Of a stretch of 64,000 nucleotides of DNA, positions 1,689 to 16,777 are shown piece after piece (within the stretch, counting starts at the first letter, position 1; every line of letters starts with the position of its first letter). The stretch is from an uncultured Bacteroidota bacterium. Lineage in GTDB: Bacteria > Bacteroidota > Bacteroidia > Flavobacteriales > Flavobacteriaceae. Position numbers and translations under genes: made by a program. The notes beneath the pieces were generated by a model that saw nothing but the letters and a program-made list of their open reading frames with translations, ran no database searches and was not told where the DNA came from. The stretch covers positions 1 through 64,000 of the forward strand of contig CACNGE010000001.1 of assembly GCA_902619855.1 (NCBI GenBank). The letters run 5' to 3'.

Positions 1689-4289
1689 TTGACAGCAAAA
1701 CCATCATCTAAGGAAACGCCATTGATGAAGCAGTACAATGAGATTAAGGTGAAATACCCAGATGCTCTATTGTTGTTTCGGGTAGGTGATTTTTACGAAA
1801 CTTTTGGTGATGATGCTGTTCGCACTGCAGATATTTTGGGCATTGTGCTCACCAAACGAGGGGCTGGTAGTGCAAGCGAAACAGAATTGGCTGGGTTTCC
1901 ACATCATGCATTAGAAACCTATCTCCCAAAATTGGTTCGGGCAGGTGAGAGAGTAGCGATTTGCGATCAGTTGGAAGACCCAAAATCAACAAAAAAATTG
2001 GTCAAAAGGGGGGTAACTGAACTTATCACACCTGGAATTACTTTGTTTGATGGGGTTCTGGACGAAAAGTCAAACAACTTTGTAGCTGCTTTACACATCA
2101 ATAATCAAATACATGGATTGTCTTTTCTCGATATTTCGACAGGTGAGTTCCAACTCACGCAAGGAAGTCAAACGGAAATATCGATCCTGATTCAGCAGTT
2201 GGCTGTCAAAGAAGTATTGGTTGCCAAACCAATTAAGAAGCAGATTGTAGAGAGTTATGGTGCAGGATTTCCAGCATATTATCTTGAGGATTGGGTGTTT
2301 CAAGAAAATTATGCGATAGAGCGTTTGCAGGGTCAATTTGGCGTTGCATCACTCAAGGGTTTTGGAATTGCTGATCTTCATGCTGGTATCATTGCTGCAG
2401 GGGTGATTTTGTATTATCTCAACGAAACTGAGCATGCGCAGTTGGATCACATCACTCACATTCATCGCCTCGATTGCGAGGTGCAAATGTGGATGGACCC
2501 ATTCACCATTCGGAATTTGGAATTGATTTATCCTAATGCACCACAGGCAACCACTCTTTTGCAGGTGATGGATCATACAAAAACTCCCATGGGTGGGAGA
2601 ATGCTAAAGCGATGGTTGGTTGCTCCACTCACCGATTTGAAAGCCATTGAAAAGAGATTGAGTATTGTAACTGATTTTTACCAACACTCAAATCGAAAAC
2701 AGCGCATGAAAGAACTGCTTCAATCTTTCGGAGATTTGGAGCGTTTAATGGCAAAAGTAGCCACAGGTAGAATTAGCCCTAGAGCAATCAATCAACTCAA
2801 AAACACCTTGCTGCTCATTCCAAAAGTAACAGAAATCACCTCAAAAAGCGACCAAGAAGCTTTGCACTCTTTAGTAGAGGGATTGGATTCTTGTTCTGCT
2901 TGTTGTCAATGGATTACAGACCGATTGTCTGAAGACGCCCCTACCCAATTGGGTAAAGGTGACACCATCGCTTCAGGATATTCTGATGAGCTAGACGACT
3001 ATCGCTCGATTGCTCGTGATGGGAAAAAAATTCTGGATGAGATGCTGGAAAGAGAAACTGAAAAAACAGGGATCAGTTCTCTCAAAATATCATTCAACAA
3101 TGTTTTTGGCTATTATATCGAGGTGCGAAACACGCACAAAGACAAAGTGCCAGAAACATGGATTCGAAAGCAGACACTGGTCAATGCTGAGCGATATATA
3201 ACAGAAGAGCTCAAGGTCTATGAAACAAAAATCATAGGAGCAGAAGACCAGATTGCTCAACTCGAACAACATTTGTTTCAAGAGCTTGTGAAGGGATTGA
3301 TCCCCTATATTGAAACTATTCAAAACAACGCACGCATATTGGCAGAGCTTGACTGTTTGTGTGGGTTTGCAAGTTTGGCAAAGGCAAGAAATTATCATTG
3401 TCCAACCTTGAATGATGGTGACTCGTTGACAATTGTACAAGGTCGTCACCCAGTGATAGAATATCAAATGGCCCCAGAAGAATCGTATATCCCCAACGAC
3501 CTTGAGCTCAACAAAAATAATCAGCAGATTATTATGATTACAGGTCCCAATATGTCAGGGAAATCGGCAGTGTTAAGACAAACAGCGCTAATCGTACTCA
3601 TGGCTCAAGTAGGGAGCTACATTCCTGCAGATCGGGCTGAAATTGGAGTTGTTGACAAGCTGTTTACTCGTGTAGGTGCAAGTGATAATATCTCCCTGGG
3701 GGAGTCCACTTTTATGGTTGAGATGAACGAAACAGCTGCAATTGTCAATAATCTGTCTGCACGTAGTTTGGTTCTGCTCGATGAGATTGGGCGTGGCACG
3801 AGCACTTATGATGGTATATCAATTGCCTGGGCGATTGCCACCTATTTGCACGAACATCCTCATCATCCCAAGACCTTATTTGCAACGCACTATCATGAGC
3901 TCAATGAAATGACAGAGCAATATGAACGAATACAGAACTATACTGTTTCTGTAAAAGAGCTAAAGGATGATGTGTTGTTTTTACGCAAATTAGTTCCTGG
4001 TGGCAGTGCGCATAGCTTTGGTATTCATGTGGCTAAGATGGCCGGGATGCCTCAGTTTATCTTGCAACAATCCAAACAACTATTGGAAAAGTTAGAAGCA
4101 AGTCGTGGTACAAAAGAGAAGAAAAAAGATGACGAAATGCAATTGAATTTTTTTCAAATGGATGACCCACTTCTTGAAGAAATTCGAGATCAAATAATGG
4201 ATTTGGATATTGATCATTTGACCCCTATGGATGCTTTGATGCAGCTCAACAGTTTGCGTAAGAAGTTGGGAAAGAAAAAGGACTTGTAG
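1689..4289 (+). CDS. mutS: DNA mismatch repair protein MutS
   Basis: ETPLMKQYNEIKVKYPDALLLFRVGDFYETFGDDA, Walker A GPNMSGKSAVLRQ, DEIGRGTSTYDG. Apparent TTG start. Confidence 0.97.
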   Translation: MTAKPSSKETPLMKQYNEIKVKYPDALLLFRVGDFYETFGDDAVRTADILGIVLTKRGAGSASETELAGFPHHALETYLPKLVRAGERVAICDQLEDPKSTKKLVKRGVTELITPGITLFDGVLDEKSNNFVAALHINNQIHGLSFLDISTGEFQLTQGSQTEISILIQQLAVKEVLVAKPIKKQIVESYGAGFPAYYLEDWVFQENYAIERLQGQFGVASLKGFGIADLHAGIIAAGVILYYLNETEHAQLDHITHIHRLDCEVQMWMDPFTIRNLELIYPNAPQATTLLQVMDHTKTPMGGRMLKRWLVAPLTDLKAIEKRLSIVTDFYQHSNRKQRMKELLQSFGDLERLMAKVATGRISPRAINQLKNTLLLIPKVTEITSKSDQEALHSLVEGLDSCSACCQWITDRLSEDAPTQLGKGDTIASGYSDELDDYRSIARDGKKILDEMLERETEKTGISSLKISFNNVFGYYIEVRNTHKDKVPETWIRKQTLVNAERYITEELKVYETKIIGAEDQIAQLEQHLFQELVKGLIPYIETIQNNARILAELDCLCGFASLAKARNYHCPTLNDGDSLTIVQGRHPVIEYQMAPEESYIPNDLELNKNNQQIIMITGPNMSGKSAVLRQTALIVLMAQVGSYIPADRAEIGVVDKLFTRVGASDNISLGESTFMVEMNETAAIVNNLSARSLVLLDEIGRGTSTYDGISIAWAIATYLHEHPHHPKTLFATHYHELNEMTEQYERIQNYTVSVKELKDDVLFLRKLVPGGSAHSFGIHVAKMAGMPQFILQQSKQLLEKLEASRGTKEKKKDDEMQLNFFQMDDPLLEEIRDQIMDLDIDHLTPMDALMQLNSLRKKLGKKKDL

Positions 4290-4307
4290 TTTTTAGGAAA
4301 ATTGCCT

Positions 4308-4315
4308 TACATTTG
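4308..4315 (+). promoter_or_regulatory. Bacteroidota -7 element TACATTTG upstream of tRNA-Gly
   Basis: TAnnTTTG motif 10 bp before the tRNA 5' end. Confidence 0.55.
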
Positions 4316-4325
4316 CGTTCCAAAT

Positions 4326-4397
4326 GCGAAAGTAGCTCAGGGGTAGAGCATCACCTTGCCAAGGTGAGGGTCGCGGGTTCAAATCCCGTCTTTCGCT
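4326..4397 (+). tRNA. tRNA-Gly (GCC)
   Basis: GCGAAAG/CTTTCGC acceptor stem, TAGCTCAGGGGTAGAGC D-arm, CACCT-TGCCA-AGGTG anticodon arm, GGTTCAAATCC T-arm. Confidence 0.96.
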
Positions 4398-4410
4398 CTT
4401 TTTAGTCCAA

Positions 4411-4496
4411 GCTGAAGTGGTGGAATTGGTAGACACGTTGGACTTAAAATCCAATGAACAGTAATGTTCGTGCGGGTTCAAGTCCCGCCTTCAGTA
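4411..4496 (+). tRNA. tRNA-Leu (TAA)
   Basis: Class II tRNA: GCTGAAG/CTTCAGT acceptor, anticodon stem TTGGA-CTTAAAA-TCCAA, variable arm, GCGGGTTCAAGTCCCGC T-arm. Confidence 0.95.
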
Positions 4497-4502
4497 CGAT
4501 TT

Positions 4503-4543
4503 TATTCCCAAGAATAATTTTTTATACTTGGGAATATTTTTTT
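4503..4543 (+). terminator. Rho-independent terminator after tRNA-Leu
   Basis: TTCCCAAG-aataattttttata-CTTGGGAA hairpin followed by a T run. Confidence 0.7.
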
Positions 4544-4600
4544 AATATGCATTTGATTCTAAAGAATTAAATCTAAGTTAATCTCTATAAAAATTGTAAT

Positions 4601-4630
4601 GATAGTTTCGAAAATAGCTAAATTGGGTAC
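4601..4630. repeat. R0: partial copy of the tRNA-chimera-like repeat
   Basis: gatagtttcgaaaatagctaaattgggtac, compared with gattgtttcgaaaatagctcaattgggtgtac in R1. Confidence 0.7.
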
Positions 4631-4649
4631 TGAAACAAATTAAATAAAT

Positions 4650-5045
4650 TTGGATATGTTGATGAACATAAAATATTTTTATTTTTTAGTTTTTGTAGTT
4701 ACATTTTTATCATTCGGTTTGGTTCAAGATTACATCAGACCAAACTATGATGGAGGAAATGACGTTATAATTTATTTTCTTGGAGTAATTCCCAACTTCC
4801 TTCCAGGTATTGGTCTTCCAAGTATGTTTTTTGTAACTATTCCAGATATTTTTAAACCTAATACATCTGTTTACAGAAATAGATTAAAGTTGTCAATAAT
4901 CGTTTCTATGATTGGTCTAATTGGAAATGAGTTTATAACTATTTACACTCCAGGAAGAGGAGTTTTTGATTGGAATGATGTATTATGGACAATTATTGGT
5001 GGAATAGTTTTTTATTTTCTACATAGAAGAATACAAAACTTATAA
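4650..5045 (+). CDS. Small multi-pass membrane protein, unknown function
   Basis: Intact 131-aa ORF with several hydrophobic segments. Confidence 0.6.
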   Translation: MDMLMNIKYFYFLVFVVTFLSFGLVQDYIRPNYDGGNDVIIYFLGVIPNFLPGIGLPSMFFVTIPDIFKPNTSVYRNRLKLSIIVSMIGLIGNEFITIYTPGRGVFDWNDVLWTIIGGIVFYFLHRRIQNL

Positions 5046-5147
5046 TATTAAATATTCGTTCGTCCTAACTTTAAAATCTTTGAATTTGATTATAAATAAA
5101 ACTATAAATTTTCATGTGAAAATGTTGATAAGAAACTCTTATGAATA

Positions 5148-5555
5148 ATGGCAAAGAAAACTTGGATAGAAAAAAGAGATTGTAATAAGTCATATAAAAT
5201 TAAAACGATTGATAAAAAATTCGCGGACATTCCAGAAGGAAGTAAAATGTTTATTGCTACACCCAGAATAATTGACGATTACATTAAGCATATACCTTAT
5301 GGAAAATCAACCGAATTGTCAACAATGCGAAATGATTTGGCAATTGAGTATCAAGCGGATAATACTTGCCCTGTAACCATAGGAATTTTTTTACGAATTG
5401 TTTCAGAAGCGTCATATGAGGAATTAAAATCAGGTAAAGGAATTGAAGAAGTTACACCTTTTTGGAGAATCGTAAATCCTAAGTCCAAATTAGCGAACAA
5501 ATTAGAATGCGGTGCTGAGTTTATCAATAAGCAAAGAGAGAGTGAGGTTATATAA
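5148..5555 (+). CDS. MGMT-like / alkyltransferase-like DNA-binding family protein (tentative)
   Basis: MAKKTWIEKRD... IPYGKSTELSTMRNDLA...CPVTIGIFLRIV...TPFWRIV resembles small stand-alone MGMT-domain proteins. By recall, not searched. Confidence 0.5.
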   Translation: MAKKTWIEKRDCNKSYKIKTIDKKFADIPEGSKMFIATPRIIDDYIKHIPYGKSTELSTMRNDLAIEYQADNTCPVTIGIFLRIVSEASYEELKSGKGIEEVTPFWRIVNPKSKLANKLECGAEFINKQRESEVI

Positions 5556-5601
5556 TTAATCTTTAAACAATAAATTACAAATGAAGAAAAAATTAATTAT
5601 C

Positions 5602-5700
5602 AAACTTTCTCAAAAAAGTCAGGGATTGTTTCGAAAATAGCTCAATTGGGTGTACGATTATATTCCGAAGAATAATTTTTTATTGTTAGGAATATTTTTA
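5602..5700. repeat. R1: tRNA-chimera-like repeat with terminator-like hairpin
   Basis: aaactttctcaaaaaagtcagggattgtttcgaaaatagctcaattgggtgtac followed by gattatattccgaagaataattttttattgttaggaatattttta. The second half matches the tRNA-Leu 3' flank. Confidence 0.85.
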
Positions 5701-5705
5701 ATGAA

Positions 5706-7727
5706 CTACAGCCTCTCAATAATCTTCTGCATCATAGACTTTAGCTTATCTATTTCAGATTGTTGCTCTGATAGAATACTCTGCTGTTCCTTGATCAAAA
5801 CATCTTGTTCTTTAAGCGCATTAATAAGAACAGGCACAAGCCCTTGATAGTTTACAGACTTAACTCCGTGACTTTCTGAAACAAGTTCAGGAAATACTTT
5901 CTCTATGTCTTGTGCAAGTAGACCTATCTTTTGTTTCTCACTCTCATCCTTTTTCATTGTATAGCTCTTACCGTCTATTTGTAGAAGTTTAGACAAAGTA
6001 GAACCAAGAGATACAATGTTTGCTTTAAGGCGTGCATCAGAATTTATGTTAAGATTCCCTGCAAGAGTTGCATCACCATTAAACTTAACTAAAAGTGCAT
6101 CACTTCTGTTATTGAAAGCTGTTCCATTCCCAATTACAAAAGCGGTATTGTCTAAACTAAATTCAGTGGCACTACTTGTTACAGTCGAGCCTGCTAAGTT
6201 ATATTGACCAACTGCTAAAGAACTACAATCACTTGCTGTTGTTCCCTCACCCATAGCTGTTGAATGATCTCCAATTGCGTCTGTGACAAAACCCATTGCA
6301 GTTGAATTGCTTCCGCTTGCTTCTGTATTAGCACCTATAGCTGTTGAATCATCCCCACTAGCTATTGTTCCTCTTCCCATAGCTGTAGAACTGCTTCCAC
6401 TTGCTAAATTATCATTACCAACAGCGAATGCATTTGAACCGCTTGCTGTAGTGTAATCAGCAACCTCAATACCCCCTGCTTCATTACTGTTATAACTAAA
6501 AGGCAGATTAGTAAGTCCGCTACCATCACCAACAAAAGATGAAGCAGTAACGCTTCCCGCTACAGTTGTTGTACCATCGAACAAAACTTTAAATGCATTT
6601 GACCTATTATTTGTATCAGTACCATTCCCAATCACCAAAGCAGTGTTAGTCGTTAAATATGTATCTGGATCAGCATTGTTGCTAACTGAATTATATTGTC
6701 CTAAAGCCACACTGTTAAAAGCATGTGAATTTGTTCCTTGTCCTATTGATAAGGAATGATTTCCAGAAGAAACAGTTTCTCTTCCGAGTGCAGCTGAAGA
6801 ATAACCAGTTGACTGAGTTGATAATCCCCCTGCAAAAGAATTTTCACCAATAGATTGAGTAGTGGTACCAATTGCTAAGGAAGCATTTCCAGTTGCCTGT
6901 GCGCCATTTCCAAGAGCAACACTTGTATCTCCTGAAGCAACAGATACATAACCTCCTGAAATCGAATGAGCGCCTGATGCTGTTGAATCAAGACCAACGG
7001 CAAAAGAGGATTGACCCGTAGCGCCTGTAGTTGTACTTGCAGAACTTTGATAACTTAAATCAACAGCAGTATTGCCAATATCTCCATGATTAGCAGCATT
7101 TGCAGAAGAAAGTCTTACTCCTACATTTCCAGCTTCTGTAACAAAGCTCAAAACACCTATCTCATTATTAGAATAGTTTTTATCATACTCAATTATTGAA
7201 ATTACACCCCATGATTTAATAGAGGTTCCTTCAGACAAAACCATTCCCTCAATCAAAGCTTTGTCTTCAGTTTCATTTGCTTTTCTAAATGTCGATTCGT
7301 CAGGGTTGCCATTTATTCCTGTAGAATAAACACTATAAATTTCAGCAACAGTATTTTCTGGAATAGTATAGGATTCGTCATACCACAAAACTTTAAAAGC
7401 TTTAACATTTGCTTTTAATGACCCAAGGTCATATAATAATGCTCCAGCAGAGAGGCTAGAACTAATTTTATGTCCTTCTGTTAGGATAATTTTTTCTAAA
7501 GACCACCATCCGCCAGAAACTCCATCATTAACCCCAACAGTTCCAGGTTGAGTTGTGCCATCAAAAGGATCCTCTTCAGTTCCTAATGGAAGAGTTTGAA
7601 GAATATACCCAGCCGGAACCGTATAAGTTGGGTTCTCTAAACTTATAACTTCAGAAATATTCATTGGTAACTTAGTATGCTGTGCAAACAGATTAATGCA
7701 AAATAAAATTAAAAATATTCTTTTCAT
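5706..7727 (-). CDS. Secreted YadA/Hep_Hag-type head-repeat protein with C-terminal peptidase S74 intramolecular chaperone domain
   Basis: Signal peptide; many SxAxGxxxxAxGxxS repeats; C-terminus SDARLKANI...IGLLAQDIEKVFPELV...VNYQGLVPVLINALKEQ plus coiled coil. Confidence 0.85.
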   Translation of the reverse strand: MKRIFLILFCINLFAQHTKLPMNISEVISLENPTYTVPAGYILQTLPLGTEEDPFDGTTQPGTVGVNDGVSGGWWSLEKIILTEGHKISSSLSAGALLYDLGSLKANVKAFKVLWYDESYTIPENTVAEIYSVYSTGINGNPDESTFRKANETEDKALIEGMVLSEGTSIKSWGVISIIEYDKNYSNNEIGVLSFVTEAGNVGVRLSSANAANHGDIGNTAVDLSYQSSASTTTGATGQSSFAVGLDSTASGAHSISGGYVSVASGDTSVALGNGAQATGNASLAIGTTTQSIGENSFAGGLSTQSTGYSSAALGRETVSSGNHSLSIGQGTNSHAFNSVALGQYNSVSNNADPDTYLTTNTALVIGNGTDTNNRSNAFKVLFDGTTTVAGSVTASSFVGDGSGLTNLPFSYNSNEAGGIEVADYTTASGSNAFAVGNDNLASGSSSTAMGRGTIASGDDSTAIGANTEASGSNSTAMGFVTDAIGDHSTAMGEGTTASDCSSLAVGQYNLAGSTVTSSATEFSLDNTAFVIGNGTAFNNRSDALLVKFNGDATLAGNLNINSDARLKANIVSLGSTLSKLLQIDGKSYTMKKDESEKQKIGLLAQDIEKVFPELVSESHGVKSVNYQGLVPVLINALKEQDVLIKEQQSILSEQQSEIDKLKSMMQKIIERL

Positions 7728-8431
7728 CGTTTGATAATTTTAAATGATTTTGTGTTGTTTTTGTCTGTAGTGACTTTTAATATGAATGTTCCTACACCCA
7801 TTTCACTCATATCTATTTGTTTTTGATTTGTGGCTTTTACTTTTCTACCTCTTAGGTCAAAAAGCTCCGCTTGCAAAACGTTTTCTCCTTGTATGTAGAT
7901 TCTATTGGCTGTTGGGTTAGGATATACTGAGATACCGCTGTTGGCTTGTAATATATTTTCTACTGTAAGACTAGCTCCAGAAGCACTAGCTGTTACAGCT
8001 TTAAAGGATACGGATTCTGTAAATGTATAACTGACAGTATTATTAGCTTGATCAAGATTACCTACATATGTAGTCCAGCTGTCATCATCTGCTTGAAGCT
8101 CCATGACCAGATCCCCTTCATTAATTCCGTTAAGTTCCTCATCGAGATAAGAAAAAGTAAGGGTTCCTGTAAACCCAGAAAGTAAAGCAGATGTGTTGTA
8201 AACTCGTAAAACAGAATTATTACCTCCAGCTGTAGCAGCAGTGATGGAACGGGACACGTCGTTAGCTCCGCTTATAACATAAGTATCAGCAGGAGCAATT
8301 TCTAATCCATCAAGATTTATGGAACTACCAGATGCAACTGAAACCGATGCACCTGAATTTACAGTTAATATTTGACTAAACAGAAACGGACAAGCCAAAA
8401 GTCCAAACAAATAGATTACATGTGTTTTCAT
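7724..8431 (-). CDS. Secreted protein with T9SS type A C-terminal sorting domain
   Basis: Signal peptide; C-terminus GISVYPNPTANRIYI...LFDLRGRKV...MSEMGVGTFILKVTT. Stop and start overlap (ATGA) with the downstream S74 gene. Confidence 0.8.
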   Translation of the reverse strand: MKTHVIYLFGLLACPFLFSQILTVNSGASVSVASGSSINLDGLEIAPADTYVISGANDVSRSITAATAGGNNSVLRVYNTSALLSGFTGTLTFSYLDEELNGINEGDLVMELQADDDSWTTYVGNLDQANNTVSYTFTESVSFKAVTASASGASLTVENILQANSGISVYPNPTANRIYIQGENVLQAELFDLRGRKVKATNQKQIDMSEMGVGTFILKVTTDKNNTKSFKIIKR

Positions 8432-8494
8432 GAATTAAAAGTAAAAAAAAAAAACGAGCCCGAAAATCAATTATTAACCCCAATACTAATCAGA

Positions 8495-8588
8495 AAACTT
8501 TCTCAAAAAAGTCAGCTTTTGTTTCGAAAATAGCTCAATTGGGTGTACAACTTTATTCCCAGGAATATTTTTTTGGGAATATTTTTTT
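8495..8588. repeat. R2: tRNA-chimera-like repeat with terminator-like hairpin
   Basis: aaactttctcaaaaaagtcagcttttgtttcgaaaatagctcaattgggtgtac matches R1 at 51 of 54 bases, then TATTCCCA...TGGGAATA hairpin and T run. Confidence 0.85.
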
Positions 8589-8648
8589 GCTCACACAAAA
8601 TATAAATCCCATTCATATTTAAACACAGGGTTTTCATAAATTGCGGGG

Positions 8649-10076
8649 ATGAAAACCAATGCAATGAAGAAAATTATATTATTCCTTTTGTTTCCACTAT
8701 TATCTTTTTCTCAAGAAAAAACAATTGAATCTTTTTTTCAACAATACAATTATAATTGTGAAAACTACAATGGAGAAGATCTTTACGAGTTTTTCGGATT
8801 TGACATTGAAGATGATGTAACACCGGCTTTAGAGGCAATTGATTCATTTTGTGAAAATGGTTCAGAGCCAAATAAAAACGAAGCATTCATTATAGCTACC
8901 AATGTGAATGTTAGGAATTTACCCTCTTTAGAAAAAGGTGTTGGAAAAAAATTATTTAAAATAAATAAAACGATCCCTGGATCTATGCAACCTGATGGAG
9001 GCCGCCAAGAGCAAGAATGGATTTGGTTTAAGCCAACCAAAGTTTCAATAATTGATTCTGTTATTAGGGATAATAATCTTTGGTATAAAGTTGTCGGAAA
9101 GAAGCTCTCAAATGAAGAATTGAACAATTTAAAATCTTGGAGTGATTGGAATATTGTAATGGATAGCCTTTATAATTTTAATCCTAATAATGATAAAATC
9201 AGAAAAAATCATTCTCAAGCTAAACAAAAGTTATTAGGTCGTTGGATACACCACAGTCTTGTTCATCGTTTTCCAGAAGACAGTTTTTCAAATAGAGTGA
9301 GATTTTACAATGGAAAATACACAGCACAAAAATCCAAAGAGGACTGGACAGGTGATGAAGTATCAGTTGAATTTGAGGTTATTAATGGTCGTGTGGAGGG
9401 AAAATACCGTTACCAACCGGGACAATATGATGGAGAATCTTGTAAGTTTAGCGGATTTATAGAATCTAACACAAAAATTGAGGGTCAATACTTATGTTTT
9501 GTTGAGGGAAAACTTAGTGATCGGGGTGAACTAAATATTCGAAATATGGATAATAATGCATTTGAAATTTTTGCAAATTCATATGAAAATTCATCAGTAT
9601 TGACTCGGATGGGAACTCAATATTTTAGATATAAATTTGAAAAACCCAAAATATATGAAGATGCAGATAAATATAAAGGAACAGTGTTCAGACCTGGTCA
9701 ATACAAAGTGTTTTTAAAAGAGATTGATGAATATAATGCTGTTTGTTGCCCAGATAATTTTAATACTTATGAAATTATACTAAACATATCAGACCAAATT
9801 AATGGTTTTATTTCAGCAAGATCATGGGGATATCATGGTTTGGAAGGTAAGTTTTTGGATGCTAAAATAAAGAATAAGAACACTATTGAATTTACTTTAT
9901 CATATTCTGATGAGGGTTTTCACTATAAAGCTCCTAACTATACTATTGAAATTCTTGATGATAAGACTTTAAAATATACAAGTGATGGGAGATATTTTTA
10001 CTTCAACTCAGATAAAGGCAGAAATGAATTGGTTTTTAATTATACATTTACACCAAAGCCTAGCTCAGAAAAATGA
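8649..10076 (+). CDS. Secreted protein with SH3-like N-terminal segment, unknown function
   Basis: Signal peptide (KKIILFLLFPLLSFSQ); ATNVNVRNLPSLEKGVGKKLFKI resembles a bacterial SH3 domain. Confidence 0.55.
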   Translation: MKTNAMKKIILFLLFPLLSFSQEKTIESFFQQYNYNCENYNGEDLYEFFGFDIEDDVTPALEAIDSFCENGSEPNKNEAFIIATNVNVRNLPSLEKGVGKKLFKINKTIPGSMQPDGGRQEQEWIWFKPTKVSIIDSVIRDNNLWYKVVGKKLSNEELNNLKSWSDWNIVMDSLYNFNPNNDKIRKNHSQAKQKLLGRWIHHSLVHRFPEDSFSNRVRFYNGKYTAQKSKEDWTGDEVSVEFEVINGRVEGKYRYQPGQYDGESCKFSGFIESNTKIEGQYLCFVEGKLSDRGELNIRNMDNNAFEIFANSYENSSVLTRMGTQYFRYKFEKPKIYEDADKYKGTVFRPGQYKVFLKEIDEYNAVCCPDNFNTYEIILNISDQINGFISARSWGYHGLEGKFLDAKIKNKNTIEFTLSYSDEGFHYKAPNYTIEILDDKTLKYTSDGRYFYFNSDKGRNELVFNYTFTPKPSSEK

Positions 10077-10212
10077 GCCTATAATTTAGTTTCAAACTTT
10101 ATTTTTCTTCTTAATTAGCTTTAAATTTCAATTCTGGCATTGTTATTGGAATTAACCTTCATAACCGCTTCAGTTTTATATTCCATGACTATAAAATTGA
10201 ACTTTAAATTTT

Positions 10213-10704
10213 TTGATTATGAAAACTTTTAATTTTTTTATTTCTGCGTTGACAATTATTTTCTTTTTTGGGTGTGGTTCAAAAATGAATTACACTTCTC
10301 TAAATGAGTCCAAAGAATTAAAAATGCCATTTAACAAAAAAGATTATGTGGATACAGAAAGTATTTTCTATTCTATACAATCTACTAGGGGGACTGGTGC
10401 AAAGTCCGGTATCGCTAAAATGAATACCCTTAAGGCTAAAAGTGATCTAACATTAAAAATTAACTCTCTCATTAATAGTAAGGTCACAAATCTAGGTCGA
10501 GGAAGTGACAATAGTTCATTTAACAATCAATTTACAAGTATTTCAGAAAGTGAAGTGAAAAGTTATATTGAACAACTTAAACTCGTTGATGAGAAGTGGT
10601 ATGTGGTTGGCAATAATTCATATGGTAAAGAAGAATTTGAACTCTGGCAAGTATATAGTGTAGCTGTAAACAATGTTTCTAATATAGCAATGCTTAACAA
10701 TTAA
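10213..10704 (+). CDS. LPP20-like lipoprotein (tentative)
   Basis: Lipobox FFFGCGSK; KAKSDLTLKINSLI...YIEQLKLVDEKWYVV pattern. Probable ATG at 10219. Confidence 0.5.
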   Translation: MIMKTFNFFISALTIIFFFGCGSKMNYTSLNESKELKMPFNKKDYVDTESIFYSIQSTRGTGAKSGIAKMNTLKAKSDLTLKINSLINSKVTNLGRGSDNSSFNNQFTSISESEVKSYIEQLKLVDEKWYVVGNNSYGKEEFELWQVYSVAVNNVSNIAMLNN

Positions 10705-10715
10705 AATCCATTGCT

Positions 10716-12215
10716 ATGTTTAGGTTATGCTACATTATTGTATGTATTGCATTTCCTTTAAGTTTTTTGTCTTGCTCTTCAGCTAATCTTCAAATTTCTG
10801 ATTGTGAAATCAATCAAGAGACTAACTTCTTTGTTATAGAAGAAATTAATAAATCTGAAATTGATAATCTTTCTGGAAAGAGATTAGCTGAGTTGAAGAC
10901 AAAGCTTATTGTTCAAATCAATACGTCGTTGACTTCAAAATCTCAGCTTATTCAATCTGTTGAGGGTGAAATATCTCAAGAACAGTTTCTTGTTACTACA
11001 ACAAGTGAATCATTTGGAGATTTAACAAACCCCACGGTATCGTTTTGCCAAAAGGGTAAAACTCGATTTGTTACTTTGAGTGTAGATAAAGAGAAATTTT
11101 TAAATAAAATTAGATTAACTCTTTTGAATAAAATTGATGTCACAGAAAGCATGATGTCATCCTTTTTAGAATCATATAATGATGAGAAGTATTCATTTAA
11201 TAAGAAAAAACTTGAACAGTTTGAAAATGAAATTATTCAAATTGAGTCTTTAAATCGAATTTTAATTTCTAATCCTAGACTTTTTAAAGATGATTATAAA
11301 ACTCAAAAAGTAATAGAAATTAAATCTATGTTTAATGAGCTCTCAAAATTAGTTGACTCTTTTGATAGAGAGATGAGGGAAATTGATGAACTAATTGCCC
11401 AGAAAAACTATAAATCAGCTTATCAAAAGATTAGTTCATTGAATGATCTTTATGATTCAAATTCTAATATTGGAAAACAAATAAGTGCTAAGAAATCTAA
11501 AATTAAAGATTTTATTAAGAATTTTTGGTCTGCTAATTACAGGATGTTTCATAAATACGTTTTTGAGGGGAAATTTAATTACGCAAGAGAAAATGTTCTC
11601 GTGTTGTGGATGCTAACAATTAATGACTCTTTACACAGTGAGTATAAGAAAATTAAAGGCACATACATTAAAGAGTTAGTTAAGTTTGAAACAAATAGAT
11701 TGATGAATGGGAAAACCAAAAAAAGTGAAATTACATTTGGTATTGATATTTCTAGCCACGATGGGGCTACAAATTTTAGTTTAGATAGATCAATACCTAT
11801 TTTATCATTTGGATTGACACACAATTTTTTAGTCAATCCTAGGATTGGAGTTATTGCTAAATTTAAACATAATACAAATTCAAACCTTGGTTTTGAAGAG
11901 ATTAGCAGAGATTTTAACAACCCATTTAATGAGATATGTGGAGGAATTCTAGTTGGACCATTAGAAATTAATTTCGGGAAAGTTTTGGACTATGATTTCA
12001 CTTCTTTAGAAACAAAATACTCAATTTTTAGAGGAGATAAAAAAGGATTGAAAAACTATATTCAATTACATGTGGGGTTTAATTATCTACACTTTGTCAA
12101 CAATGTTAAATTAAATCAATTTAGTGTTTCAACAGGTTTGAATTACAATTTTAGATTTAATAGAAGACTAAATAAGAAGGAAAAAAAGTACATCGCTAGT
12201 TTACACAAGTTTTAA
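10716..12215 (+). CDS. Lipoprotein with LPP20-like N-terminal region and C-terminal barrel-like region
   Basis: Lipobox LSFLSCSS; KRLAELKTKLIVQINTSL...GKTRFVTLSVDKEKF; coiled-coil-rich centre. Adjacent to the 10213 gene. Confidence 0.5.
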   Translation: MFRLCYIIVCIAFPLSFLSCSSANLQISDCEINQETNFFVIEEINKSEIDNLSGKRLAELKTKLIVQINTSLTSKSQLIQSVEGEISQEQFLVTTTSESFGDLTNPTVSFCQKGKTRFVTLSVDKEKFLNKIRLTLLNKIDVTESMMSSFLESYNDEKYSFNKKKLEQFENEIIQIESLNRILISNPRLFKDDYKTQKVIEIKSMFNELSKLVDSFDREMREIDELIAQKNYKSAYQKISSLNDLYDSNSNIGKQISAKKSKIKDFIKNFWSANYRMFHKYVFEGKFNYARENVLVLWMLTINDSLHSEYKKIKGTYIKELVKFETNRLMNGKTKKSEITFGIDISSHDGATNFSLDRSIPILSFGLTHNFLVNPRIGVIAKFKHNTNSNLGFEEISRDFNNPFNEICGGILVGPLEINFGKVLDYDFTSLETKYSIFRGDKKGLKNYIQLHVGFNYLHFVNNVKLNQFSVSTGLNYNFRFNRRLNKKEKKYIASLHKF

Positions 12216-12332
12216 ATGTAGAATTGTCAATCTCATTTAATGCAGGGGCTTTTTATTTTTTGAAATTAAAAACTATATCAATTTTAACTTTGGTAATATT
12301 AGTTATTTAATAAAACTGTTTAAGAATCTGAT

Positions 12333-12408
12333 GATTGGTTTAGAAAATAGCTCAATAGAGTATACGATTATCCTCAAAAATAATTTTTTGTTTTTGTGGT
12401 TTTTTTTG
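12333..12408. repeat. R3: diverged copy of the tRNA-chimera-like repeat
   Basis: gattggtttagaaaatagctcaatagagtatacgattatcctcaaaaataattttttgtttttgtggtttttttt. Confidence 0.75.
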
Positions 12409-12456
12409 ATTTAAAACGAAGTTGAATAAGCTGCCGAATTTTTTTAATTTAGTTGC

Positions 12457-13839
12457 ATGAAAAATTTATTCTTTGCCCCTTTCTTACTAATACTAGGTGT
12501 TGGCTTAAACGCTCAAATCAGTGTAAACGATAGTCAAATTAAAGATTTGCTAGACCCTATTGATTTGCAAGATGCCGTTTCGAAATCATACCTGTTAGAC
12601 CATATAAATCAGTTACAAGCACAAATCAAATATTTGCAGAAAAACATAAGTGTACCGCCTGCGAATGAATGTATTGATGGAAATGCCGGTGAGTATGAAT
12701 GTTTGGGTATTGACCTCATGTCTACAGTAAGCCTAGAGCAACTTGACGCCGCCGCAGCAAACGACTGTTGGGGCTGGAGTGACACACTAACTGGAAGAGA
12801 ATACGCTATAATAGGCCTTGATAATGGAACAGCGTTTATTGATATTACAATTCCTAATTCCCCAGTCATAATTGGAAAACTACCGACACAAACGCTTGCT
12901 AGTATTTGGCGTGACATAAAGGTTTTTGGAAATCATGCCTATATCGTCTCCGAGGCAGACAATCATGGCATGCAAGTTTTTGATCTCACTCATTTAAGAG
13001 ATACCACAACTTATACGGTTTTTTCTGCCGACAGTCATTATGATGGATTTGGGAATGCGCATAATATTGCGATCAACGAAGACTCTGGTTATGCCTATGC
13101 TGTGGGGACTCAAACATATAATGGGGGTGCTCATTTCATTGATATCACTAACCCTGATAATCCAACCAGTGCTGGGGGGTATGACGAAAAAGGCTATTCT
13201 CATGATGCAATGATTGTTACATACAATGGCCCTGATCTCGACTATAAGGGTAAGGAAATTTATATTGGATCCAATGAAGATGAAGTCGTCATAGTGGATG
13301 TTACTGATAAATCAAACCCGACCTTTATTTCAAGCATACAATACAGCTCAACCCAGTATACCCATCAGGGATGGTTGACAGAAGACCATAAATACTTCCT
13401 TGTTGGGGATGAGTTGGATGAGGTTCAATATGGTATCAACGCAAGAACGATTATTTTGGATTTTTCTGATTTAGATGAGCCAGTGAATCATGTTGAATAT
13501 ATATCTCCAAACGCAGTAGTCGATCACAATGGCTATGTTGTTGGTGACTTATTTTATTTGGCAAGCTACACAGGGGGCCTTCGTATTTTAGGCCTGGAAA
13601 ACATTGAATCAAAAGAAGTTACAGAGAAATATTATTTTGACACTCATATTGGACATGAGACTCAATCAGCTAGAAAACCAGTTATCATTGGATTTGACGA
13701 TGATCATGACAACCCCAGAAAGGGCAATGAAGATTTGTTCAATGGTGCTTGGAGCGTATATCCTTTTTTAAAAAGCGGCAACTTAATTGTTAGTGACATT
13801 AATAAAGGGCTTTTTGTGTTAAAAGTAGATACTTTGTGA
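12457..13839 (+). CDS. LVIVD-repeat / choice-of-anchor B family secreted protein
   Basis: Signal peptide; CWGWSDTLTGREYAIIGLDNGTAFIDITIPNSPVIIGKLPT and further propeller-like repeats. Confidence 0.8.
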   Translation: MKNLFFAPFLLILGVGLNAQISVNDSQIKDLLDPIDLQDAVSKSYLLDHINQLQAQIKYLQKNISVPPANECIDGNAGEYECLGIDLMSTVSLEQLDAAAANDCWGWSDTLTGREYAIIGLDNGTAFIDITIPNSPVIIGKLPTQTLASIWRDIKVFGNHAYIVSEADNHGMQVFDLTHLRDTTTYTVFSADSHYDGFGNAHNIAINEDSGYAYAVGTQTYNGGAHFIDITNPDNPTSAGGYDEKGYSHDAMIVTYNGPDLDYKGKEIYIGSNEDEVVIVDVTDKSNPTFISSIQYSSTQYTHQGWLTEDHKYFLVGDELDEVQYGINARTIILDFSDLDEPVNHVEYISPNAVVDHNGYVVGDLFYLASYTGGLRILGLENIESKEVTEKYYFDTHIGHETQSARKPVIIGFDDDHDNPRKGNEDLFNGAWSVYPFLKSGNLIVSDINKGLFVLKVDTL

Positions 13840-13977
13840 GGTGACAAAATCGTTGGAGGTTCAAATGTTATGAGCACTTGTTTCTTTGGTAAATGTTAAT
13901 TAATAATTAAGTTATTAAAATTTAGCTCAACTAATCTTGATTTTAATTAGATTTAAAAAAATTTAAATAATTAAATT

Positions 13978-15687
13978 ATGAATAAACTCTACAATTTAAC
14001 ATTAGCTTTATTTCTAACTGGTTTTTGTTATGGACAAACAGTATTTATAAATGAAATTCACTATGATGACGCTAGCAGTGATTCAGGCGAGGGTGTCGAG
14101 ATTGCCGGTCCCTCAGGTACTGATTTAACTAACTACACAATTACTGCCTATAACGGAGGAAATAATGAATCATATAAAACTTTGTCATTGACTGGAGTAA
14201 TACCTGACTTAGGGAGTTCTGGGTATGGAACTATATTTTTTCCCATATCAGGACTTCAAAATGGTGCTCCTGATGGACTTGCGCTTGACAACGCAGGAAC
14301 TCTAATTCAGTTTTTGAGTTACGAAGGATCACCGTTTACAGCCTCTGGCGGACCTGCTGATGGGATAACTTCTACAGATATTGGTGTGGCTGAAACAGGC
14401 ACAACTCCTGACGGACATTCCTTACAACTTAAAGGGACGGGTACTACTTATGAAAATTTTACTTGGGATGGTCCAAAAGCTAATACTTATGATGCAATTA
14501 ATACTGATCAAATTTTTCAAGCTCTAGTGGATCCAACAATAACAATTTCAGTGACTTCCATTTCTGGTCTTGCATATGTTTCAGGGAATAGTTCAATTGT
14601 TTCTGAATCTTTTAGTGTTAGTGGATTAAACTTGAATGAAGGAATTACCATATCTGTACCTCAAGGATTTGAGGCTTCAGAAGATGATACAACATTTTCG
14701 AATGCTGATATTGTTCTTCCGGCTTCCAGCGGTTCTGTATCAACTACTCAAATTTATGTAAAATTATCTTCTGGTCAACAAGAAGGTGATTATTCAGGGT
14801 CCTTAAATATTAATTCAACGGGTTTAAGTGAAAGTGTAACAATTTCTGGACAAGTGTATCCAGATTCATTTGTTAGTAATTTATCTCAAGACTTGTTTAT
14901 AAGTGAATATGCTGAAGGTAGTAGCAGTAATAAATACATTGAAATATACAATCCTACTGCCCAAACTATTGATTTATCTTCATACGCAATTGCTTCTGTG
15001 TCAAACGACCCTACAATTATTGGATGGCATGAAAGTTTTAATACATTTACGGAAGACGCAACAATATCCTCTGGCGAAACATATGTATGGGCTAACTCAG
15101 GTTCAAACGCAACCATTTTAGCTGTAGCTACAGCCCCAACAGGTGAAACTGGAACAGCTTATTTCAATGGTGATGACGGTTATGCGCTTGTTAAAGGCAC
15201 CGAGACTTCATATGTGGTTTTGGATATTATTGGAGATTTCAATGGAGATCCGGGTAGTGGATGGGATGTTGCTGGAGTAAGTAGCGCTACAAAAGATAAA
15301 ACACTTGTTAGAAGGGATTTCGTTACAAAAGGAAATAACAATTGGTCCTCTAGTGCTGGAACGAATTCATCAGATTCTGAATGGGTAGTACTAGACAAAG
15401 ATGATTTCAGTTTTGTTGGGTCTCATCCTCATACAGATGCAACACTATCAATTTTTGGTTTTGAAAATCAACGTGTTAAGGTATATCCTAATCCAGTTGA
15501 AGTGTTACTTAACTTCTCAGGTTTAACGTCACCTGTTCAAGCAACTGTATTTGATATGCTTGGAAAACGTCAGCTTCAAAGTGAAGTGATAAACAGCCTA
15601 GATGTTAGCTCATTAAAATCTGGGTTATATATGGTTGAGATTAAAAATGAAAACAGCGCTAAAGTGTTTAATATCCTTAAGAAATAA
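13978..15687 (+). CDS. Secreted protein with two lamin-tail-like domains and T9SS C-terminal sorting domain
   Basis: VFINEIHYDDASSDSGEGVEIAG and LFISEYAEGSSSNKYIEIYNPT; C-terminus VKVYPNPVEVLLNFSG...SLKSGLYMVEIKN. Confidence 0.85.
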   Translation: MNKLYNLTLALFLTGFCYGQTVFINEIHYDDASSDSGEGVEIAGPSGTDLTNYTITAYNGGNNESYKTLSLTGVIPDLGSSGYGTIFFPISGLQNGAPDGLALDNAGTLIQFLSYEGSPFTASGGPADGITSTDIGVAETGTTPDGHSLQLKGTGTTYENFTWDGPKANTYDAINTDQIFQALVDPTITISVTSISGLAYVSGNSSIVSESFSVSGLNLNEGITISVPQGFEASEDDTTFSNADIVLPASSGSVSTTQIYVKLSSGQQEGDYSGSLNINSTGLSESVTISGQVYPDSFVSNLSQDLFISEYAEGSSSNKYIEIYNPTAQTIDLSSYAIASVSNDPTIIGWHESFNTFTEDATISSGETYVWANSGSNATILAVATAPTGETGTAYFNGDDGYALVKGTETSYVVLDIIGDFNGDPGSGWDVAGVSSATKDKTLVRRDFVTKGNNNWSSSAGTNSSDSEWVVLDKDDFSFVGSHPHTDATLSIFGFENQRVKVYPNPVEVLLNFSGLTSPVQATVFDMLGKRQLQSEVINSLDVSSLKSGLYMVEIKNENSAKVFNILKK

Positions 15688-15708
15688 ATAACTTTTTCTA
15701 ATAATTTA

Positions 15709-15738
15709 AAAAGCGGAACTTGTGTTCCGCTTTTTTTT
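15709..15738. terminator. Bidirectional terminator between convergent genes
   Basis: AAAAGCGGAAC-TTGT-GTTCCGCTTTTTTTT between 13978(+) and 15737(-). Confidence 0.8.
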
Positions 15739-16777
15739 ATTGCTTTTTAATAAGTAAAGCGTAAACAGGGAAGTGATCGCTATAACCTCCAGTAAATTTA
15801 CCACCTGCAAAACTCCTAAAAGGATAGCCTTTATAGCGCCCTTTTTTATTGTAGAGATAACTTGGGTTAAATATTCCTGCTTTCCAAAAATACCAGTTGG
15901 TATCACTTTCGCCTAGTAGGCTAGGGCTCACATGGACTTGGTCCAATACGTTCCACTTGTCGCGATAGCAGCTAGTACCAATTCCTTTTTTATAAAAGGA
16001 CATCATGGGGTTGTAAAAAATACTGTTTTCCGATACTTCGTCTCGTTCACCAACAGCACCCAAAACATCCTCAACACTTTTATTATTGGGGTCATCATTA
16101 AAATCACCCATATTGATGATTTTGGCATTTGGGTTTATGGCACGAATCGAATCAACTGTCTTTCTGTTTAGTTCACCAGCTGCAATGCGCTTTGGCTCGC
16201 TTGTCGCTTGACCACCACTGCGTGAAGGCCAGTGATGAACAATCAAATAAATGAGCTCGTTGTCAAGTAATCCCGACACAACCAACTGGTCTCTTGTGAA
16301 GTCTCGATCACCACCAGAATCAAAGAGAGAAAGAAAATGTGTTTTAGCTCTCAGAAGAGTAAACTTACTTTTCCTATACAACAAGCAAACATCGATACCA
16401 CGTTCGTCAGGCGATTCAAAATGAGCAATCCCATAATTATATTTTTTAAGCTGTGGCGTTTCTACGAGTCGCTCAACCACATAGCGATTTTCAACTTCAG
16501 AAAGGCCAATGACAGCAGGAGGTCCCCCTGTCAGTTCTCGTGCCACATCAGCGATAACAATTGCAGTGTTGGTTAGCTTCTTTTCAAAAATATCTTCTGT
16601 CCAGCGATCACGTCCTTCTGGCGTGCGATCATCGTCTCTAGTTTCTGGATCGTCATAATGATCAAAAAGGTTTTCAACGTTGTAAAACGCAATGGTTTCA
16701 ACGGCATATGTTTGAATTTGCGATCTAGTGTAGAAAAGCGCAAAAAAGAGTAGAATAATTGTTAATGTTTTTTTCAT
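15737..16777 (-). CDS. Secreted endonuclease/exonuclease/phosphatase family protein
   Basis: Signal peptide; VETIAFYNVENLFD, IGLSEVENR, VHHWPSRSGG, NMGDFNDDP, YSDHFPV motifs. Confidence 0.9.
   Translation of the reverse strand: MKKTLTIILLFFALFYTRSQIQTYAVETIAFYNVENLFDHYDDPETRDDDRTPEGRDRWTEDIFEKKLTNTAIVIADVARELTGGPPAVIGLSEVENRYVVERLVETPQLKKYNYGIAHFESPDERGIDVCLLYRKSKFTLLRAKTHFLSLFDSGGDRDFTRDQLVVSGLLDNELIYLIVHHWPSRSGGQATSEPKRIAAGELNRKTVDSIRAINPNAKIINMGDFNDDPNNKSVEDVLGAVGERDEVSENSIFYNPMMSFYKKGIGTSCYRDKWNVLDQVHVSPSLLGESDTNWYFWKAGIFNPSYLYNKKGRYKGYPFRSFAGGKFTGGYSDHFPVYALLIKKQ

Follow-up and report, generated by a model that had tools for sequence, protein, structure and literature searches.

Gene cassettes bounded by a conserved half-site at tRNA-Leu in marine Flavobacteriaceae, and a large serine integrase as the likely enzyme behind them

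In SCC and pseudo-SCC elements, large serine recombinases (CcrA/CcrB/CcrC) act at one chromosomal site at a gene end, where tandem composites arise that include recombinase-less members. A different task is served by XisF, the fdxN-element excisionase of cyanobacteria, which removes one element in development. The integrase considered here resembles both. XisF is its best NCBIfam match (3e-36), although below the cut-off (125 vs. 375), and CcrB matches at E=5.5e-33. The system is nevertheless not SCC, as the CcrB and CcrC models score only 114 and 77 bits against a cut-off of 900, the target is tRNA-Leu and not rlmH, no ccrA-ccrB pair was seen beside the integrase, and the cargo serves marine surface and polysaccharide functions.

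The ssrA islands of Dehalococcoides are a second point of comparison (DsiB; PMC3146451). They too are tandem islands at one RNA gene, many of them without an integration module, and their serine recombinase gene likewise lies antisense at the target, its 3′-end overlapping attL (PMC3146451). The dsiB frame is reported to run into the target RNA gene, as do the frames of most integrases here (PMC3146451). The differences lie in the target and in the amount of shared sequence: tmRNA and 20 bp in DsiB islands, tRNA-Leu or tRNA-Met and 4 bp here, and the conserved motif at the far boundary is 15 bp there compared to a half-site of about 61 bp here (PMC3146451). The present units are also small (0.1–4 kb), cross genera and belong to another phylum.

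The tyrosine-integrase islands collected in Islander also target tRNA 3′-ends and keep the tRNA intact, but the enzyme here is a serine integrase and the ends share 4 bp, with no tRNA fragment (PMC4383910). According to that 2015 reference database of tRNA-located islands, serine integrases were not known to use tRNA genes (PMC4383910). Integrons and CALIN offer a functional parallel in their tandem small cassettes, common site and mixed gene orientation, although the recombinase is different and no attC features were seen here. A literature search that left most subscription journals outside its reach found no description of the repeat, of its elements, or of tRNA-gene serine integrases in Flavobacteriaceae.

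Repeat R and the array in the window

The window, the 64,000-nucleotide stretch of DNA analyzed here, comes from a 1.53-Mb genome (G000, 73% complete) of a small-genome marine genus of Flavobacteriaceae. Related contigs are from uncultured Flavobacteriaceae and Bacteroidetes, including the single-cell genomes AG-913-F17 and AG-908-E14. An earlier note on this DNA, made from the sequence alone, had placed four intergenic copies of a repeat behind a tRNA pair, and all four are found there (R0–R3; Table 1). They score 39.9–87.0 bits with a position-weight matrix built from 34 sequences, R0–R3 included, and independent searches agree with them. Nothing else in the 64-kb window scores above 15 bits, and no score above 5 was obtained in 20 Markov-1 shuffles of the window.

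Table 1. Coordinates of the tRNA genes, repeats and units of the array (window positions)
Feature	Position	Strand	Remarks
tRNA-Gly(GCC)	4326..4398	+	ARAGORN; conserved neighbor of the target tRNA
tRNA-Leu(UAA)	4411..4497	+	Integration target (predicted); junction GTAC 4494-4497; homology blocks stop here in many pairs
Left end of first unit	4498..4546	+	Terminator hairpin now serving tRNA-Leu; similar left end after nearly every R
Unit 0	4498..4630	+	No gene; ends in degenerate R0
R0	4571..4636	+	Degenerate half-site, GGGTAC in place of GGGTGTAC; core from 4606; 39.9 bits
Unit 1	4631..5655	+	VanZ-like gene 4650-5045 (weak match), unknown gene 5148-5555; ends in R1
R1	5594..5659	+	Full half-site; GTAC 5652-5655; core from 5629; 87.0 bits
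Unit 2	5656..8548	+	Antisense pair; ends in R2
YadA-head/S74-chaperone protein (unit 2)	5706..7727	-	
Por_Secre_tail protein (unit 2)	7724..8431	-	
R2	8487..8552	+	Full half-site; GTAC 8545-8548; core from 8522; 78.6 bits
Unit 3	8549..12365	+	Genes 8649-10076, 10213-10704, 10716-12215, no family above cut-off; ends in R3
R3	12304..12369	+	Half-site with ATAC for GTAC; core from 12339; 47.6 bits
Right flank of array	12366..13839	+	Choice-of-anchor B gene 12457-13839

Thirty-four copies from the genus align over 66 columns almost without gaps. The conserved part covers about 61 bp (AnTTTnTTCAAAAAAGTcAGcGATTG-TTTCGAAAATAGCTCAATTGGGTGTAC), with GTAC at its end. Of the shared core described in the earlier note, the left part is conserved and longer than claimed, and the right part consists of varied terminators. 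There is no single sequence 3′ of the GTAC; many different intrinsic-terminator hairpins are found instead, starting at most 14 nt away. Such a hairpin follows R in 56 of 64 copies, compared to a mean of 18 and a maximum of 27 in shuffles. The note's count of 43 matching bases out of 48 between the right part of R1 and the 3′ flank of tRNA-Leu is correct, and the likeness is there because both are left-end terminators of neighboring units. R itself shares only the GTAC with tRNA-Leu and has no other run in common with it. Its left part does resemble the 5′-end and D-arm of tRNA-Gly, but the likeness is short (CGAAAnTAGCTCA) and is gone in distant copies (TTCGAGAATAGGTCAATnnnGTGTAC). An Rfam scan of the window returned tRNAs only, R giving no match.

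The order mutS-tRNA-Gly-tRNA-Leu is kept in more than 15 loci. GTAC is the usual tRNA-Leu 3′-end across Flavobacteriales (the 3′-end pattern was matched in 104 of 120 genomes), and hence GTAC was there before any insertion. A unit starts immediately behind one GTAC, stops with the following one, and comprises a left terminator, genes in either orientation, and R. Units measure 0.1–4 kb and hold 0 to 3 genes; two without genes, of 111 bp, occur in G120 in addition to unit 0 of the window. Pieces of the window array recur elsewhere. The upstream part of unit 0 resembles L029 7583-7648 and L032 4452-4517. The gene pair of unit 2, or its first gene, adjoins R in three other genomes (G007, G001, and G071). 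The left 1.5 kb of unit 3 is found with 92.8% identity in G008 (L043), next to another left neighbor, and the right flank of the array also follows an R behind tRNA-Leu(CAA) in G008 (L100). Pfam scans of 30 proteins, encoded for the most part in arrays, found no recombinase in the window array. This, together with an empty PF00239 search of G000, bears out the earlier remark that no integrase is visible in the window.

All 13 genomes sampled from the genus gave matches to R in a DNA search, and 12 of them did so in a profile search, with 1–9 copies each; G000 has about 10. Some dozen further small genomes of marine Flavobacteriaceae carry it, and diverged copies are present in larger genomes (G120, G094, G182, and G092). 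It is rare in wider samples (9 of 301 genomes in the family, 4 of 397 in the order). Viral contigs gave no exact match and four loose ones attributable to chance, and R was not found in phage and plasmid collections. The arrays are tied to tRNA-Leu genes, chiefly at the mutS-tRNA-Gly-tRNA-Leu(UAA) locus: in 16 tRNA-Leu loci, all 30 copies are co-oriented with the tRNA. A few lie away from tRNA-Leu, for example beside tmRNA (L035, L078).

Next to R, several genera have a gene pair for a Por_Secre_tail protein and a trimeric surface protein of the YadA/S74 or a similar kind (window 5706-8431, L027 5897-8622, L074 179-2370, L097 6394-8858, L085, L087, and L089). The flanking segment itself (window 12366-16777; L100 4415-9171) stands after tRNA-Leu(UAA) arrays in G000 and G007 and after tRNA-Leu(CAA) in G008, which suggests that the two tRNA-Leu sites have exchanged chromosomal segments.

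Movement of the units

When loci were compared, the ends of homology blocks lay within 6 bp of a GTAC in both loci in 30 of 139 cases (0.35 expected); these 30 include orthologous tRNA-Leu ends and related pairs and are not independent events. Three genomes (G012, G064, and G071) share a unit with a GH10 xylanase gene at 94.5–95.7% identity, compared to 71–77% for mutS. The edges of the unit fall exactly at GTAC. No two of the three genomes have the same right neighbor; on the left, two have the unit immediately after tRNA-Leu and one has it after an R. That three lineages share it almost unchanged speaks for integrase-free units having moved recently. A filled and an empty state can also be compared between genomes, none being found within one strain: in G008, a KdgK-KDPG-aldolase unit with its R sits exactly at GTAC between tRNA-Leu and an S9-peptidase unit, and in G005 the S9-peptidase unit follows tRNA-Leu directly. 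tRNA-Leu(CAA) serves as a second site (L045 vs. L100).

On the strength of these sequence comparisons, the units between R copies are mobile, including by transfer across genera. The exact GTAC borders and the filled/empty pair uphold the earlier proposal of repeated cassette insertion behind tRNA-Leu with R as the boundary. That proposal was to fall if the copies were scattered over the genome without association to gene gain and loss; R is instead tied to tRNA-Leu, and its units move.

The KdgK-KDPG-aldolase pair, followed by R or a decayed R, occurs in seven loci in several chromosomal contexts (L092 2108-2173, L093, L031, L032, L035, L042, and L094). There are also gene-less units of about 150 bp which start with an inverted sequence like the tmRNA 3′-end and end in a tRNA-Leu 3′ fragment (GGTTCAAGTCCC..GTAC). 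They lie at L034 2893-3042 and 16700-16832, L043 1575 and 2589, and L080 5132, and can replace R as the left neighbor.

A serine integrase paired with R

Related genomes have elements of 7.2 to about 42 kb with R at one end; at the other, an antisense integrase gene abuts the 3′-end of tRNA-Leu or tRNA-Met. The smallest (G069, L140) reads tRNA-Leu, antisense integrase gene (6543-7874), cargo and R over 7.2 kb, and its integrase has 443 aa with Resolvase, Recombinase and zinc ribbon domains. In G094, R follows about 42 kb after the integrase at tRNA-Leu. The closed genome G120 has two tRNA-Leu genes, each with an integrase (absolute positions 1243.9k and 955.3k) and with R 27–29 kb downstream; the pairing there is one of order and not of a single proven element, because R is distant and other units lie between. 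In G006, the integrase is at tRNA-Met (ending GCTAC) and an R ending GGGACTAC is found 32 kb on. Judged by its sequence, this half-site is of the same family as R, the last bases following the target. The element ends accordingly share a short core, GTAC at tRNA-Leu and CTAC at tRNA-Met.

The enzymes have the domain make-up of large serine integrases, Resolvase plus Recombinase (plus zinc ribbon) in about 440–560 aa. PF00239 and PF07508 were found in all four integrases tested, and PF13408 in three, in two of them below cut-off. The gene adjoins the tRNA attachment site in L105, L136, L138, L140, L154, L157, and others, and the reading frame mostly extends into the tRNA. The integrases from R-bearing genomes fall into a single clade (support 100/99) that excludes the ones found at tmRNA, tRNA-Arg, -Asn, and -Lys. 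R is present in five of the six genomes with this clade, compared to 9/301 in the family sample; in the sixth (G219), where no R was found, the element runs off the contig. A serine integrase is thus likely to be the enzyme behind R.

G000 (73% complete) yielded no integrase of this family (no PF00239 hit), and 19 of the 27 R-bearing genomes searched have none. Remnants are nonetheless present. Behind tRNA-Arg on contig C7 of G000, a stretch of 257 bp matches the left end of the G006 element at 87.5% identity and takes in the integrase C-terminus (72% aa identity over 80 residues). A remnant follows tRNA-Leu in G065 (89.7% over 302 bp), and another stands at the start of the tRNA-Leu array in G007 (46 bp, 93.5%). 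These indicate that such elements were once present in the three genomes and that the integrase was lost.

The variant at tRNA-Met also bears on the origin of R. The earlier note had taken the repeat to be a scar in which the 5′ part of tRNA-Gly is fused to the 3′ part of tRNA-Leu, or else a mobile boundary element mimicking one. The first idea was dropped, since only GTAC is shared with tRNA-Leu and the tRNA-Gly likeness is lost in distant copies. With 61 bp conserved across genera and a close variant at tRNA-Met, R was not made from tRNA-Gly. The second idea came close to the truth, R being an independent conserved half-site. The interpretation is therefore partly supported as a whole.

The tRNA-Arg gene and remnant on C7 lie at L165 14068-14395, and a weak R-like copy (GGGACTAA) is found 11 kb downstream (L099 5226-5291). 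Other large serine integrases lie antisense at the 3′-ends of tmRNA, tRNA-Met, -Arg, -Asn, and -Lys (L141, L144, L145, L146, L148, L149, L150, L151, L159, L160, and L162). The use of tRNA genes by serine integrases may be widespread in Flavobacteriaceae.

Proposed mechanism and rival explanations

R is most probably the conserved right-end half-site of mobile elements that a large serine integrase inserts at the tRNA-Leu 3′-end, with relatives at tRNA-Met and probably at tRNA-Arg; the window would then hold four integrase-less units. The units could alternatively be shuffled by homologous recombination between repeats and conserved flanks, with R having no enzyme of its own now. Flank homology could indeed exchange units within the genus, and R and the terminators are short shared sequences, but the GH10 units break at GTAC between flanks only 71–77% identical, and their left neighbors (tRNA-Leu or R) are unrelated except for 4 bp. 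We therefore hold this to be unlikely. Hardly better placed, and in our view quite unlikely, is a tyrosine integrase that builds the array at tRNA-Leu, with R as its degenerate attR, descended from the tRNA-Leu 3′-end. Elements of this type with classical tRNA-Leu 3′-fragment scars do exist in the family (L129, L130), and such scars are seen on contig C23 of G000 itself (L034 3037, 16829). However, the classical scars share 25–29 bp with tRNA-Leu and R shares 4 bp, so that no tRNA 3′ fragment of about 20 bp or more marks its distal end. Moreover, R genomes carry mainly XerC/XerD, the extra tyrosine integrases being mostly at other tRNAs; no PF00589 integrase was found in the arrays examined, and R pairs with serine integrases.

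The frequent terminator after R, and the frequent position of R behind a co-oriented gene, would fit a transcribed element (a 3′ UTR or small RNA) that is no recombination site at all. That is very improbable, given that the same gene and R carry different terminators in different genomes, that R is also found upstream of divergently oriented genes (R2, L027 12785, and L033), and that Rfam knows only tRNAs in the window. Least credible, to the point of being negligible, is an integron-like attC array lacking its integrase (CALIN). The two kinds of array are alike in having units of 1–3 genes flanked by repeats, but inspection of 34 aligned copies revealed no inverted RYYYAAC/GTTRRRY boxes, R is conserved in sequence and not in structure, and its partners are serine integrases. 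An IS200/IS605-type target tetranucleotide, a dif/Xer site, a coupling-sequence-tolerant tyrosine integrase and an integron attC were set aside for want of matching boxes, of a constant hairpin sequence and of a suitable enzyme in the vicinity of the arrays.

If a serine integrase does act through R, a full element would consist of the tRNA-GTAC, its own terminator, the antisense integrase gene (3′-end toward the tRNA), cargo, R-GTAC and the old downstream sequence. We infer attP to be R-GTAC-left terminator and attB to be tRNA-Leu-GTAC-terminator, integration giving tRNA-Leu-GTAC-new terminator ... R-GTAC-old terminator. The incoming left end would restore termination of the tRNA transcript, and the former terminator would be displaced behind R. 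Since every insertion would leave a target-like GTAC at the tRNA, units would accrete in one orientation. In the presumed attP, the P and P′ sides do not form obvious inverted repeats, and the right side varies freely, which is unusual for serine integrases. The integrase would recognize R, the crossover would fall inside GTAC, and the cassettes would circulate as circles. Units 0–3 may have been moved in trans by the integrase of another element, or may be decayed full elements or stranded remnants, and the array may still be movable.

The array is best read as an accretion of integrase-less cassettes with 4 bp shared, resembling SCC/pseudo-SCC and the Dehalococcoides ssrA islands. More tentatively, and at somewhat less than even chances, it may belong to an integron-like cassette system in which a tRNA-targeting serine integrase recognizes one half-site (R), tolerates almost any hairpin-bearing other side, requires some 4 bp of shared sequence, and works in trans on cassettes of 0–3 genes that lack an integrase and circulate between marine flavobacterial genera. 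Cassette accretion at tRNA-Leu would account for gene turnover in ocean bacteria with streamlined genomes, and it can be seen in single-cell genomes; the small cassettes carry xylanase, peptidase, uronate-degradation, and surface-protein genes. A whole set of serine integrases lies at the 3′-ends of tRNA-Leu, -Met, -Arg, -Asn, -Lys, and tmRNA. If real, an integrase requiring one fixed half-site plus a 4-bp core, the latter in a nearly universal tRNA end, would make a useful insertion tool.

Two further gene sets were seen near R in the closed genome G120 (L115). Just before a weak R copy, at 3005-6760, lies a set like a diversity-generating retroelement, with a Fib_succ_major target, an Avd-like protein, a template-like repeat and a reverse transcriptase split in two frames. 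At 6841-8327, an AbiEi-like antitoxin and its probable AbiEii-like partner form a unit between two R copies.
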